A DNA stretch of 35,621 nucleotides from a virus: IMG/VR virus record IMGVR_UViG_3300042896_000231, positions 1 to 35,621 of that record. One strand, given 5' to 3'. The notes under the pieces were generated by a model. That model had not been told where the DNA came from and made no database searches. It saw only the letters and a list, made by a program, of their open reading frames with translations. Position 1 is the first letter of the stretch. Every line of letters starts with the position of its first letter. The position numbers and the translations under genes are program-made. Below are positions 25,393 through 29,520 of the stretch, piece after piece.

Positions 25393-25443
25393 TAGAAGAA
25401 TATTAGCGTTACGCTAATCTTTTGTAAATAGCGTAATGCTAAA
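25393..25443 (-). promoter_or_regulatory. PL promoter with operators OL1 and OL2
   Basis: On the minus strand -35 is TTTACA (25428-25423), the spacer is 17 bp and -10 is TAATAT (25405-25400), giving a start near 25393. OL1, ATTAGCGTTACGCTAAT (25402-25418), is a perfect 17-bp palindrome lying in the spacer. OL2, AATAGCGTAATGCTAAA (25427-25443), matches at 13 of 17 positions and touches the -35. The same element occurs three times at OR, so this is the binding site of the phage repressor and Cro. Confidence 0.88.
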
Positions 25444-25547: not shown

Positions 25548-25568
25548 AAAAAAACCCGCCAGAGCGGG
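25548..25568 (-). terminator. Terminator of the immunity operon
   Basis: Read on the minus strand: CCCGC, loop TCTG, GCGGG, then a run of seven T. It lies about 50 bp after the rexB stop. It ends the cI-rexB transcript before it can run into the PL promoter, as the terminator behind rexB does in lambda. Confidence 0.85.
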
Positions 25569-25616
25569 CTACAAAATATTTAAGGTGAATGGATAAATTA
25601 ATAAATTATTCAATAT

Positions 25617-26096
25617 TCACGTATGTTTTTTCATTGCTTTATAAGCAACTCCAAATATTGCGTATGTCACTACAACAACTTGTGATAAAGATAATGTAAA
25701 TAAAAATATCATTATATTGAAAGCATAGTATGTATCTCTTTCAGAAAAATTATAAAGTGACACAAATGAATTTAAAACCAAATAAAATATAGCAATAAAA
25801 TATAATGACATAAAAACATTAATATTTTTGCGATTTACATAATCTTTAAATGTTTGTGTATTAAAGATTGTAAAAAAAATAGCAATGACAGCTGCTAAAA
25901 ATCCAAGCATCGTATAAGAAAATCCTGAAATCATAGTTGCAATTTCAAGTTTTTTAGTTTGTAATTTTAGTGGATCTATCCATTTTAGATGCAGAACTAT
26001 CTTGTATGTCGCCAATAATATCAAACCAATTGTCGGAGCTATTAAATTTATGGATAGCATCAATAATCGTTCTGTCGTAGTCGTCATTCTGCTCAT
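25617..26096 (-). CDS. rexB: RexB-like four-helix membrane protein
   Basis: 159 residues with four membrane segments (about 13-34, 54-78, 91-117 and 124-151), as in lambda RexB (144 residues). In lambda RexB is thought to form an ion channel that depolarises the cell when RexA senses a superinfecting phage. The assignment rests on topology, size and position directly behind a clear rexA. Start ATG 26096 has TAAGG 10 bases upstream, inside rexA; a later ATG at 26060 has no such site. The gene thus overlaps the last 143 bases of rexA, whereas the lambda genes only touch. Strongly AT-rich, like all cargo of this operon. Confidence 0.78.
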   Translation of the reverse strand: MSRMTTTTERLLMLSINLIAPTIGLILLATYKIVLHLKWIDPLKLQTKKLEIATMISGFSYTMLGFLAAVIAIFFTIFNTQTFKDYVNRKNINVFMSLYFIAIFYLVLNSFVSLYNFSERDTYYAFNIMIFLFTLSLSQVVVVTYAIFGVAYKAMKKHT

Positions 26097-26928
26097 GATC
26101 TTGTACCTTACTAGCTAAAATGTCATTAGCATTTATTTTTTCAAATATCTCATCATATATATGTTTTTCATTTGATGACTCTAGAATATCATGAACAATT
26201 CCAAGTCCTTCAATTCTAAAATCCGTAAGCTTATCTGCAATCTCATTTTTTGCTCTAATTGTTAATTTATCAATACCTTGGTTATCTGCGTTTATTAAAT
26301 GCTGGCTAATATTTTTGATATTTTGTCGCGATTTTGGTTTAAGTATTACTTCAAATGTTCCTAAATCTTCAAGATCAGATGGTGTAGCTCCAAAAACTTC
26401 AGCTATACGACTAAAAAATGAACTATCTGAATTAACTTCAATAGCAGTTGATCCTATAAAATCCATTTTTAGTGCATCACCACGAGATAGTTTCTCTGTA
26501 AATGCATTAAGTCTAAATTGATAGGCGTGACAATTAAGTCTAGTGAGTAACTCATTGACCAAACTAGTAAATGCTGTAACTGATGGCGCTAATTGTGTTG
26601 AAGCAAAAGCGATATAGTTACTTTTTACCATTATGTAAGATACGAACCCAATGCTTTCATTGAGTGCTAACCGAGACGATATTTCTTCAACTGAAATATT
26701 TTGTTTATCAATTGTTTTAACGATTTCTGTATCTTTTGTTTTAAGAAATAAAAATAAATCACTTCGCTGATTAAGTAAAAAAATTTTCTCATCATTATGA
26801 ATTAGAGTATTTTTAAAAGTTGCATTGTCAAAATTACAAAATCCAATAAGAAAATCTTTAATACTCATTAATATTCTTCTTTCTTTAGCAACCTCATAAA
26901 AATAATATCCATAATAATTAAGTTTCAT
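25954..26928 (-). CDS. rexA: RexA homologue, superinfection-exclusion sensor
   Basis: 324 residues. Compared with lambda RexA (279 residues) from memory, blocks run in the same order: LFLKTKD (59-65; RexA LFTKTND), SVEEI then LNESIGF (89-95; RexA DDESLGF), MDFIGST (155-161; RexA MHFIGRT), VFGAT (178-182; RexA VLGAT), ILKPKSRQNIK (195-205; RexA VIKPKFKRDIK) and IRAKNE (224-229; RexA LRAKDE). RexA binds DNA, and with RexB aborts infection by other phages. The extra C-terminal 45 or so residues correspond to the part that overlaps rexB. GAGATGAT precedes the ATG. As in lambda it sits in the repressor operon, so it is made in the lysogen. Confidence 0.88.
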   Translation of the reverse strand: MKLNYYGYYFYEVAKERRILMSIKDFLIGFCNFDNATFKNTLIHNDEKIFLLNQRSDLFLFLKTKDTEIVKTIDKQNISVEEISSRLALNESIGFVSYIMVKSNYIAFASTQLAPSVTAFTSLVNELLTRLNCHAYQFRLNAFTEKLSRGDALKMDFIGSTAIEVNSDSSFFSRIAEVFGATPSDLEDLGTFEVILKPKSRQNIKNISQHLINADNQGIDKLTIRAKNEIADKLTDFRIEGLGIVHDILESSNEKHIYDEIFEKINANDILASKVQDHEQNDDYDRTIIDAIHKFNSSDNWFDIIGDIQDSSASKMDRSTKITN

Positions 26929-27022: not shown

Positions 27023-27877
27023 TTAGTTCTTTAACTCACCAGCATACTTATCCCGAAATTCCGCCAGAGTCATAGTGCAAAGTGACTGATCAACCTTTGT
27101 TCCGTATGGCATTCCAATACAGGCGCCCATACCTTCGGCGAGAGGAGTGCTGGACAACACATCAAACTGTTTAATATCCCCATTACGCAGCTTCAACGTA
27201 TATCGAATTTCGTATTGCTCAACCGCTTGCTTGTTAAACAAGGCAGCACCAATGACAGCACCAAGCAAAGTGCTTGATACATCCTTGTTTAGTGAATAAT
27301 TTGCAGGATTTACGTTATTAACGTAAGCCACTGCACCAGCTGCGCCTCCAGCTTCTGCACCGAAATTGCTGCCTGGTGTACTTAAGTTTCTTACTTGTCT
27401 ATCTGTAACGATGCCAACTTCTGAAGCTTCATAAAAAATTATCTTGTAATTATCTGATAAATATTTTTGCTCTTTTTCATTTAATTTTGAATATAAACCT
27501 TTTGATAAACGTAATTCTTTTTTAATTGTTTTTTCTACTGATAAAACATTGTCTACTGCTTGATTGCACTGTTGAGTAGTTGCAACTATGCAAAATCTTT
27601 CAACTTCAATTTTTTTATAATATAAATCACCGGTTTTATTTACCCAGTAATTTAGTGAATCTATTGAAAATGTAGAAAATCCATAATTGACAATTTCTGG
27701 ATAATCTTTCACTAACAAAATCATTCTTTCTGTATCTTCTTTTTTATTTTTAGAAAGAATGAAATCAACCCCATCATAAGCATAATTCCATTGCTTTTTC
27801 TCCGCCCTAGATTGAGGGTTTGTAGTTGATGAGCAACCCTGTATAGCTATTAAAAATATACAGATAATAAATTTCAT
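27023..27877 (-). CDS. Lipoprotein with glycine-zipper-like segments, lysogenic cargo
   Basis: 284 residues. A signal peptide (KFIICIFLIAIQGC) with the lipobox Cys at 15 marks a lipoprotein, probably bound for the outer membrane. The middle is rich in Lys, Asn and Tyr. Residues about 170-215 hold two small-residue-rich stretches (FGAEAGGAAGAVAYV and LLGAVIGAALF) like the glycine zippers of SlyB-type proteins, and the C-terminus with YEIRYTLKLRNGDIKQFDVL resembles their beta part. As part of the repressor operon it would be displayed by lysogens; a role in changing the envelope or blocking adsorption is inference. Low GC compared with the structural genes suggests recent acquisition. Confidence 0.72.
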   Translation of the reverse strand: MKFIICIFLIAIQGCSSTTNPQSRAEKKQWNYAYDGVDFILSKNKKEDTERMILLVKDYPEIVNYGFSTFSIDSLNYWVNKTGDLYYKKIEVERFCIVATTQQCNQAVDNVLSVEKTIKKELRLSKGLYSKLNEKEQKYLSDNYKIIFYEASEVGIVTDRQVRNLSTPGSNFGAEAGGAAGAVAYVNNVNPANYSLNKDVSSTLLGAVIGAALFNKQAVEQYEIRYTLKLRNGDIKQFDVLSSTPLAEGMGACIGMPYGTKVDQSLCTMTLAEFRDKYAGELKN

Positions 27878-27888
27878 TTAGCTCTCAA

Positions 27889-28437
27889 TTATTCAAATGG
27901 CTTAATGTCTAGACAAATACCGTAATTAGCTTTGCTACCATCTTGCATTAAATAACCGCCAGTAATTTCAGCATCACATGTAGTTATCTTTCCGCCAAGT
28001 TTTTTGGCACTTAATCTACGTCTAAAGCTTCTTGCATCATCTTTAGACATACAACCGACAGTCATATTATTTATATCGATTCGAACAGCTAATTTATCGA
28101 ATTGATTGTCATTTTCTGGAATCAGCTTTGCTATGTACTGCCCTACAGGAGATTTATCTCCGTGGTTTCCAGCTGCGGATCTAATTGCAGGTTGATAATT
28201 AGACTCACCAACAACTTCAAAATCAAAGTTTCCTAATGATGGCCAATGCAAGAATGATTCAGTATCAGCATTAACTTTAGGTTTAAGTTCTTCTTGCGCC
28301 CCTTCGATGAGGTTAATTGCATAATATGCAATAACTAGAACACCAAACAAACAAAGCCAGAAATTCTGATCAAATATTCTAGAAAGTATTTCAGCTAGGA
28401 AAGTGACTATAAGGATTACAACGATCCATCTTTTCAT
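27889..28437 (-). CDS. Membrane-anchored HIRAN-domain protein
   Basis: 182 residues from ATG 28437. Two membrane segments open it (about 4-18 and 24-40), followed by a HIRAN-type domain from about 70: FEVVGESNYQPAIRSAAGN, then YIAKLIPENDNQFDKLAVRI and MTVGCMSKDDARSFRRRL. HIRAN domains bind DNA 3' ends or damaged DNA in helicases such as HLTF; alone and attached to a membrane they are uncharacterised. The longer reading from 28497 would overlap cI. It is the first gene behind the repressor, 35 bp away, and its product would be present in every lysogen. Confidence 0.8.
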   Translation of the reverse strand: MKRWIVVILIVTFLAEILSRIFDQNFWLCLFGVLVIAYYAINLIEGAQEELKPKVNADTESFLHWPSLGNFDFEVVGESNYQPAIRSAAGNHGDKSPVGQYIAKLIPENDNQFDKLAVRIDINNMTVGCMSKDDARSFRRRLSAKKLGGKITTCDAEITGGYLMQDGSKANYGICLDIKPFE

Positions 28438-28472: not shown

Positions 28473-29198
28473 TTACAGTTTCCCGCCCGTTTGCCATTCA
28501 ACTACAACGCCAATAACACGCAGTGCAGGGTCATCAATTTCTTTTGTTGGATATGCTGGATTAATGGGCTTTAAAAACCAACTGGCTCCGTCAGTAGTCA
28601 ACTTCTTAAATGTGGCTTTTTGCGTTGTTGTATCTTTCGCAACAACATAGTCACCAGATTTTGGCGCACGCTCAGGATCAATAATAATCAAACATCCATC
28701 TGGGAAATTAACCCCGTTAGTCCCACCAGACATACTATCGCCTTCAACACGCAATGCGAATGCATGTCTACTTGGCTTTGTATATTCAGGTGTTACCCAT
28801 TGATCTGCTTCACCAGGCAAGTGGTTATCCTCTATATCAACTAAAGAACCAGCCGTTACCCATGAAATCAAGGGGACTTGATCGGCTGATAGCGTAGCTT
28901 TACTGATATTTGAGGATAAGTCAATTTTAGTTTCTAAAGAATCAATTAGCTTTGAGAGTTCTGAAGTATGGTCGGTATCTAACCAATTCTTAGACATTCC
29001 AATTTTTTCTTCAATTCTTCTGCAACTTTCCGAACGCATACCTCTAGGGCGGCCTGTTTTCGAATCTAGAGATCCGTTAATCCATTGACTTAATTGCGAT
29101 GAAGAAATGCCGCACGCCTCTGCAAACTCATCAAGAGTTCGGTATTTGGTTCTTAGTTTTGCTAGGTTTTCGCGCCTAATTTCTGTGATTTCTTTCAT
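28473..29198 (-). CDS. cI: CI-type repressor, LexA-like with S24 domain
   Basis: 241 residues from ATG 29198. The helix-turn-helix is TLDEFAEACGISSSQLSQWI (about residues 22-41). The self-cleavage site is Ala-Gly in WVTAGSL (about 117-123), the catalytic Ser lies in EGDSMSG (about 155) and the catalytic Lys in TFKKLTTDG (about 197). It keeps the prophage silent by binding OL and OR and cleaves itself on activated RecA, so the phage is SOS-inducible. A TTG start at 29216 would add six residues, but ATG 29198 lies 8 bases behind the PRM -10, leaving almost no leader, as for lambda cI. There is no ribosome site. Confidence 0.92.
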   Translation of the reverse strand: MKEITEIRRENLAKLRTKYRTLDEFAEACGISSSQLSQWINGSLDSKTGRPRGMRSESCRRIEEKIGMSKNWLDTDHTSELSKLIDSLETKIDLSSNISKATLSADQVPLISWVTAGSLVDIEDNHLPGEADQWVTPEYTKPSRHAFALRVEGDSMSGGTNGVNFPDGCLIIIDPERAPKSGDYVVAKDTTTQKATFKKLTTDGASWFLKPINPAYPTKEIDDPALRVIGVVVEWQTGGKL

Positions 29199-29206
29199 GA
29201 TTTGAT

Positions 29207-29274
29207 TGAATAGCAAAACGCTAATAAAAAGAATTCGCGAAACGCTTGCAATAACATTAGCGTTACGCTAAATT
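29207..29274. promoter_or_regulatory. OR operators with divergent PRM and PR
   Basis: Three copies of the 17-bp operator lie 23 to 24 bp apart: OR3 29209-29225 (13 of 17), OR2 29233-29249 (11 of 17) and OR1 29256-29272 (16 of 17, against the perfect OL1). PR, + strand: -35 TTGCAA (29246-29251), 17 bp, -10 TAAATT (29269-29274), with OR1 in the spacer. PRM, - strand: -10 TATTCA (29212-29207) inside OR3, with a poor -35, as expected for a promoter needing repressor at OR2. Start points fall on or next to the start codons of both genes. Confidence 0.87.
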
Positions 29275-29280
29275 ATGGAT

Positions 29281-29520
29281 ATGGAACTCAAAACATATCT
29301 ATTAAGCAAAGGCCGAGGGTCTTTATCTTCACTAGCCAAACAGATTGGTGCTCATGCACCAGATTTGTCGTGCTGGTCAAGCAAAAAAAAACCAATTCCC
29401 CCTTTTCGATGTGTCGATATTGAAAAAGCAACCAAAGGAAAAGTTACTCGTCGCGACTTGCGTCCTGATGACTGGCGGCAAATTTGGCCTGAGTTAGTCA
29501 AATCAAAAATGCATAACTGA
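29281..29520 (+). CDS. cro: Cro-type regulator, YdaS family, probably leaderless
   Basis: 79 residues from ATG 29281. ELKTYLLSKGRGSLSSLAKQ with the following IGAHAPDLSCW is a helix-turn-helix, and RRDLRPDDWRQIWPEL closes it, the pattern of YdaS/Cro regulators in betaproteobacterial prophages. It should bind the same operators and shut down the repressor during lytic growth. An in-frame ATG at 29275 exists, but the predicted PR start falls at 29281, and family members begin with M-x-L-K. There is no ribosome site, so translation from a leaderless message is likely. Confidence 0.88.
   Translation: MELKTYLLSKGRGSLSSLAKQIGAHAPDLSCWSSKKKPIPPFRCVDIEKATKGKVTRRDLRPDDWRQIWPELVKSKMHN

Follow-up and report, generated by a model that had tools for sequence, protein, structure and literature searches.

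The window, by which we mean the whole stretch of viral DNA analysed here (IMG/VR record IMGVR_UViG_3300042896_000231, 35,621 nucleotides), contains a lambda-like immunity region that begins with the left operators, runs through rexB and rexA and then two cargo genes to cI, and ends with the right operators and cro. Its features are as follows:

25403-25442, no strand assigned: left operator pair (25403-25417 and 25428-25442), from palindrome matches
25553-25570, minus strand: intrinsic terminator after rexB, from a terminator scan
25617-26096, minus strand: rexB, 159 aa from the ATG at 26096 or 156 aa from the ATG at 26087, with four predicted membrane helices
25954-26928, minus strand: rexA, 324 aa, an open reading frame with profile, tblastn and structure-library matches
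25954-26096, minus strand: rexA/rexB overlap of 143 nt, comprising rexA codons from about 278 to 324 and the stop and, in a second frame, the start of rexB
26025-26028, minus strand: bases shared by RexA Trp301 (TGG, 26026-26028) and RexB Gly24 (GGT, 26025-26027)
26105-26109, minus strand: Shine-Dalgarno-like AAGGT within rexA Lys-Val codons, 8 nt 5' of the rexB ATG
27023-27877, minus strand: gene between cI and rexA for a predicted lipoprotein, with a signal peptide and GCSS lipobox
27889-28437, minus strand: gene between cI and rexA for a protein with an N-terminal membrane helix and a soluble domain that is HIRAN-like by eye only
28473-29198, minus strand: cI-type repressor with an S24 peptidase domain, start ATG at 29198, from profile matches
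29210-29271, no strand assigned: right operators (29210-29224, a weaker 29234-29248, and 29257-29271), from palindrome matches
29275-29520, plus strand: YdaS/Cro-type regulator in the cro position (PF15943, 5.6e-17)

The 324-residue protein is RexA. It matches Pfam PF15969 with an E-value of 6.4e-61 (206 bits against a cut-off of 25), the PADLOC RexA model (1.1e-59), the PHROG family 'RexA-like exclusion protein' (2.1e-34) and, in a profile search, the structure of lambda RexA, PDB 8TWQ (3.6e-24); NCBIfam gave no match for it, every other general profile library searched having matched RexA. Lambda itself is reached by tblastn (2e-20, 32% identity), and identity to lambda-type RexA is 24-29% by alignment and 28-34% over tblastn segments. 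R225 and K227 align with R219 and K221 of lambda RexA, both residues being kept, and the lambda residues are reported to be required for DNA binding (PMC11077077). A Foldseek search with an AF2 model of RexA returned chains of 8TWQ as its only significant matches (2.8e-15; next match 0.05), from a model that has a low-confidence C-terminal half, is weak past residue 140 and was built on an alignment that included lambda RexA. Since the AF2 models of RexA and RexB are of modest quality (pLDDT 59 and 65 for the two), we base no claim on them by themselves.

RexB is more divergent, being only 12-22% identical to lambda-type RexB, and tblastn of the window protein on named phages returned nothing usable; its homology was established through PADLOC, its relatives and profile comparison. 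The PADLOC RexB model matches the window protein at 5.6e-8 and recognises RexB in all seven of the overlapping relatives tested (described below), while comparing a RexB profile built from its relatives with that of lambda-type RexB gave an alignment of 131 columns (E 1.4e-10). Four hydrophobic segments are predicted from sequence, and the AF2 model is all-helical, at low confidence. The original prediction had identified the pair as RexAB from motif blocks running in the same order as in lambda RexA and from a four-helix membrane protein of RexB size behind them. Each of these points is borne out: ESIGF/ESLGF, FIGST/FIGRT, FGAT/LGAT, KPK and RAKNE/RAKDE all align in order with lambda RexA, the four segments accompany a PADLOC RexB match, and beside the strong RexA profile match neither protein is better matched by another defence system.

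The pair occupies a lambda-like slot behind the repressor. Beyond the terminator lies the palindrome ATTAGCGTTACGCTAAT, which recurs at a distance of 25 bp (25403-25442), and the palindrome TTAGCGTTACGCTAA is common to a site left of the terminator and a site upstream of cro. An exact copy of the left-operator 15-mer is found at 29257-29271, upstream of the gene in the cro position; a weaker copy occupies 29210-29224, and the site between these two is degenerate. The centres of these right operators are 23-24 bp apart, which is the spacing of lambda OR. The 15-mer has seven matches with three or fewer mismatches in the window against 0.9 expected, a count in which palindromes are scored on both strands and the consensus derives from these same sites. 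A terminator closing the pair before PL had been foreseen; it lies at 25570-25553, with the left operators beyond it. The expectation of a lambda-like position stood as far as the shared strand with cI, the terminator and the matching operator palindromes are concerned, but two extra genes (27889-28437 and 27023-27877) separate cI from rexA.

By eye, the soluble part of the first of these products looks like a HIRAN domain (VVGESNYQ...PENDNQFDKLAVRI...VGCMSKDDA), and a Pfam search gave no match for the protein; the same kind of search placed the predicted lipoprotein, the second product, in no family. Lipoprotein-like genes also lie just upstream of rexA in two relatives (L127 and L131), and a staphylococcal-nuclease-type protein is encoded there in another (L125). 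The scan found no terminator-like site on this strand between cI and rexA, and we infer that rexAB is cotranscribed with cI in the lysogen; rexA is preceded by a 94-nt AT-rich gap, which could hold a separate promoter. In eight other loci (L113, L114, L121, L125, L127, L128, L129 and L131), rexA likewise has a repressor-type gene, recognised through Pfam or by eye, upstream of it on its own strand, either immediately adjacent or separated from it by one or two genes, and the slot behind the repressor is described as a home of prophage defence genes, namely BstA and RexAB (PMC8585504).

The other genes of the phage are of mosaic origin. Its tail tube is closest to those of Curvibacter and Limnohabitans phages (48-49%), its integrase to that of a Xanthomonas phage (58%) and its portal to those of Klebsiella and Moraxella phages (39-41%), such that the betaproteobacterial character originally ascribed to its genes finds only partial support. 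There is no tRNA in the window. RexA matches were found in none of the 44 records that share the phage's tail protein, about 18 of which exceed 30 kb, a result that carries less weight for the fragments among them; in a sample of 369 genomes from the class and another of 399 from the phylum, RexA was found in a single genome besides the lambda-bearing genome used as centre. The suggestion that a Rex module has kept its place next to cI is therefore right about the slot, but with no RexA match in those 44 relatives the pair looks like exchangeable cargo that settles repeatedly behind a repressor, rather than a demonstrated inheritance from a common lambdoid ancestor, and rexAB is best seen as rare and mobile. 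Thirteen genome-contig matches with lambda or near-lambda RexA (L010-L021 and L023) were not accepted as family spread, as many lie in unrelated bacteria on contigs that are short or the size of lambda, and contamination is likely. The Citrobacter match among them is likely an ordinary lambdoid prophage; the lambda sequence in L010-L020 and L023, from assemblies labelled Streptomyces, Capnocytophaga, Bradyrhizobium, Neobacillus and others, is probably sequencing contamination.

A feature absent from the original prediction is that rexB starts 143 nt inside the 3' end of rexA. The AAGGT motif lies inside rexA, 8 nt before the rexB ATG, so translation of rexB is probably coupled to that of rexA; purine-rich motifs precede rexB in relatives too. 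Alignment-based searches recovered 15 further intact overlapping pairs, in which RexA has 304-318 residues and the overlap spans 71-113 nt in one common frame (a single-protein search of viral contigs had found one locus only); with the window, the ranges become 304-324 aa and 71-143 nt, and neither frame is broken in any of the 16. Members are IMG/VR phages and proviruses (L113-L116 and L125-L131), two gammaproteobacterial genomes and Acinetobacter plasmids. In the genomes, G175 (L112) and G489 (L124), the pair is chromosomal, and the part of each contig that was read shows no recognisable phage genes. The plasmid pairs (L134-L137; for example NZ_CP149839 and NZ_CP045100) combine a long RexA, an overlapping rexB and the common tail motif. 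Their plasmids are small and the genes are listed as hypothetical proteins; on NZ_CP149839 rexB is annotated from an internal start, the CDS being limited to its 3' part, on NZ_CP027248 an IS256-type element interrupts the pair, and on one plasmid the overlapping pair adjoins tet(39) and mph(E).

In overlapping pairs the RexA tail carries a motif around an invariant Trp, whose bases also encode an invariant RexB Gly; these are Trp301 and Gly24 in the window, both invariant across the aligned overlapping pairs. Compact enterobacterial (lambda-type) RexA has 277-283 residues and mostly a gap of 12-30 nt before rexB, and the window, with 324 aa and a 143-nt overlap against a RexA of about 280 aa and a separate rexB, falls outside that branch. 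In the RexA tree the compact forms make up one branch with 100/100 support on a long stem, the window excluded; overlapping forms are the remainder, with weak inner support, and a divergent pair (L132) lies outside. For an unrooted tree with such inner support, an 'overlap first' history is only a suggestion. The divergent pair (L132:8001-9300, also L133) comprises RexA-like and RexB-like proteins with 24% and 32% identity in part and a 4-nt overlap; it adjoins an integrase, and surrounding genes hint at a possible P4-like satellite. Out of 5,426 complete E. coli genomes, 21 carry this pair, annotated as hypothetical proteins, and its RexA goes unrecognised by PADLOC.

We consider it likely that the pair is a RexAB abortive-infection (exclusion) module in an overlapping-gene form, expressed by the prophage, with RexA as DNA-binding sensor and RexB as channel. 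The genes would lie towards the distal end of the repressor mRNA. By analogy with the lambda, CarolAnn, Sbash and Pseudomonas putida systems, from which the sensor and channel roles are taken (PMC11077077, PMC6426606, PMC6426596, PMC12894663), RexA would be a dimeric, non-specific DNA-binding sensor with the lambda RexA fold that senses infection by another phage and switches on RexB, a small four-helix inner-membrane protein; active RexB would then permeabilise the membrane, and growth and phage production would stop. Weighing against this reading are the low identities to the lambda-type proteins (24-32% for RexA, 12-22% for RexB), the uncharacterised genes between cI and rexA, and the AT-rich gap that could supply rexA with its own promoter.

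Two other accounts of what the proteins do need to be weighed. The pair might mainly tune its own lysogeny-lysis switch, RexA-DNA binding biasing CI/Cro to lysis and exclusion being secondary or absent; lambda RexA is reported to exert such a bias without RexB (PMC11077077), and rexAB is located between the operator clusters. Some relatives, however, are carried by small plasmids of Acinetobacter or by chromosomal stretches in which no phage genes are recognisable nearby; these would have no CI/Cro switch to tune, yet retain rexB beside rexA, which makes this account unlikely. A second account reverses the roles, with RexA as toxic effector and RexB as a membrane anchor that keeps it inactive, as reported for one RexAB-like pair, that of mycobacteriophage Butters (PMC12894663); the conserved RexA tail could then be the part held by RexB. 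Yet the effector is described as the membrane protein in lambda, CarolAnn, Sbash and P. putida (PMC12894663), and the window pair directly matches lambda RexA and RexB models, where the P. putida pair reportedly needs HHpred, so we judge a reversal very unlikely.

In 14 overlapping pairs we held the RexB protein fixed, redrew its codons 1,000 times from the usage of the same pair and read the RexA frame. Similarity of the RexA tail was 1.23, against -0.43 (sd 0.10) after resampling; there were no stops in the tail frame where 11.9 were expected; and the tail Trp was present in 14 of 14 pairs against 6.5 expected under rexB codon resampling. None of the 1,000 resamplings reached the observed values for similarity, stops or Trp. 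This null ignores shared ancestry, but the resampling z was 14.9 within the overlap against -0.1 to 2.0 in control windows across the rest of rexB, which argues against ancestry as the cause. Because the high z is confined to the overlap, the RexA tail is kept as protein, selected there beyond what rexB forces. It is thus highly improbable that the tail is a decayed relic or chance overlap, a functionless read-through into rexB: the window RexA does have the longest tail, the 23 residues past its conserved Trp being mostly unshared with relatives, but in every one of the 16 pairs with a retained rexB the two frames are both open throughout, and conservation exceeds what rexB imposes within the overlap only. 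A frameshift product fusing RexA to RexB was also considered, and nothing supports such a fusion.

For the exclusion module, two consequences can be proposed. Embedding rexB in rexA may fix the RexA:RexB ratio by translational coupling, and the Trp tail may touch or dock on RexB. For lambda, and perhaps also for P. putida, exclusion is reported to depend on this ratio (PMC12894663), a known sensitivity for which the overlap offers a physical reason. We put forward tentatively, as possible but doubtful, the fuller version in which the Trp tail is a docking piece that opens the RexB channel, the shared DNA fixes the stoichiometry, and the overlap is the ancestral and more diverse state from which the separated genes of lambda are derived.

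A conserved RexA tail that is absent from lambda and present in diverse pairs supplies specific residues to mutate, and with them a new handle on the 70-year-old question of how infection is sensed by RexA and RexB is switched on. Overlapping pairs also show that annotation can overlook rexB or cut it short, and published cases of 'orphan RexA', such as those reported from Salinisphaera and Shewanella (PMC11077077), may therefore hide an overlapping rexB.

Among known systems, RexAB of phage lambda (NC_001416; 8TWQ) and its enterobacterial relatives share with the window homologous RexA and RexB, gene order on the cI strand, terminator and operator framing, and the DNA-contact residues; they differ in their shorter RexA, which lacks the Trp tail and is mostly separated from rexB, and in lambda rexA follows cI with nothing intervening, where the window has two genes. 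The actinobacteriophage pairs CarolAnn gp44/gp43 and Sbash gp30/gp31 likewise combine a cytoplasmic DNA-binding protein with a four-helix membrane protein; exclusion is reported to need both genes in each, and the CarolAnn pair adjoins the repressor (PMC6426606, PMC6426596). Their link to RexA, however, runs through a weak DUF4747/HHpred resemblance, whereas RexA and RexB models pick up the window pair directly. RexABpp of P. putida (PP_5643/PP_5644) is, like the window pair, a two-gene prophage system outside the lambda group, in which RexA is reported to bind DNA and RexB to damage membranes upon RexA overproduction; it is described as detectable as RexA by HHpred only, and the portion of that account available to us mentions no gene overlap (PMC12894663). 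The Acinetobacter pairs have the overlap and tail motif of the window, but are plasmid-borne. RexAB-type genes far from lambda, some behind a repressor, have thus been described previously (CarolAnn, PMC6426606; Sbash, PMC6426596; P. putida, PMC12894663), and overlapping rexA and rexB with a conserved RexA tail were not found in the published RexAB descriptions, as far as the available portions of these extend. RexAB outside the lambda group being already known, the novelty is the overlap architecture together with the conserved RexA tail.
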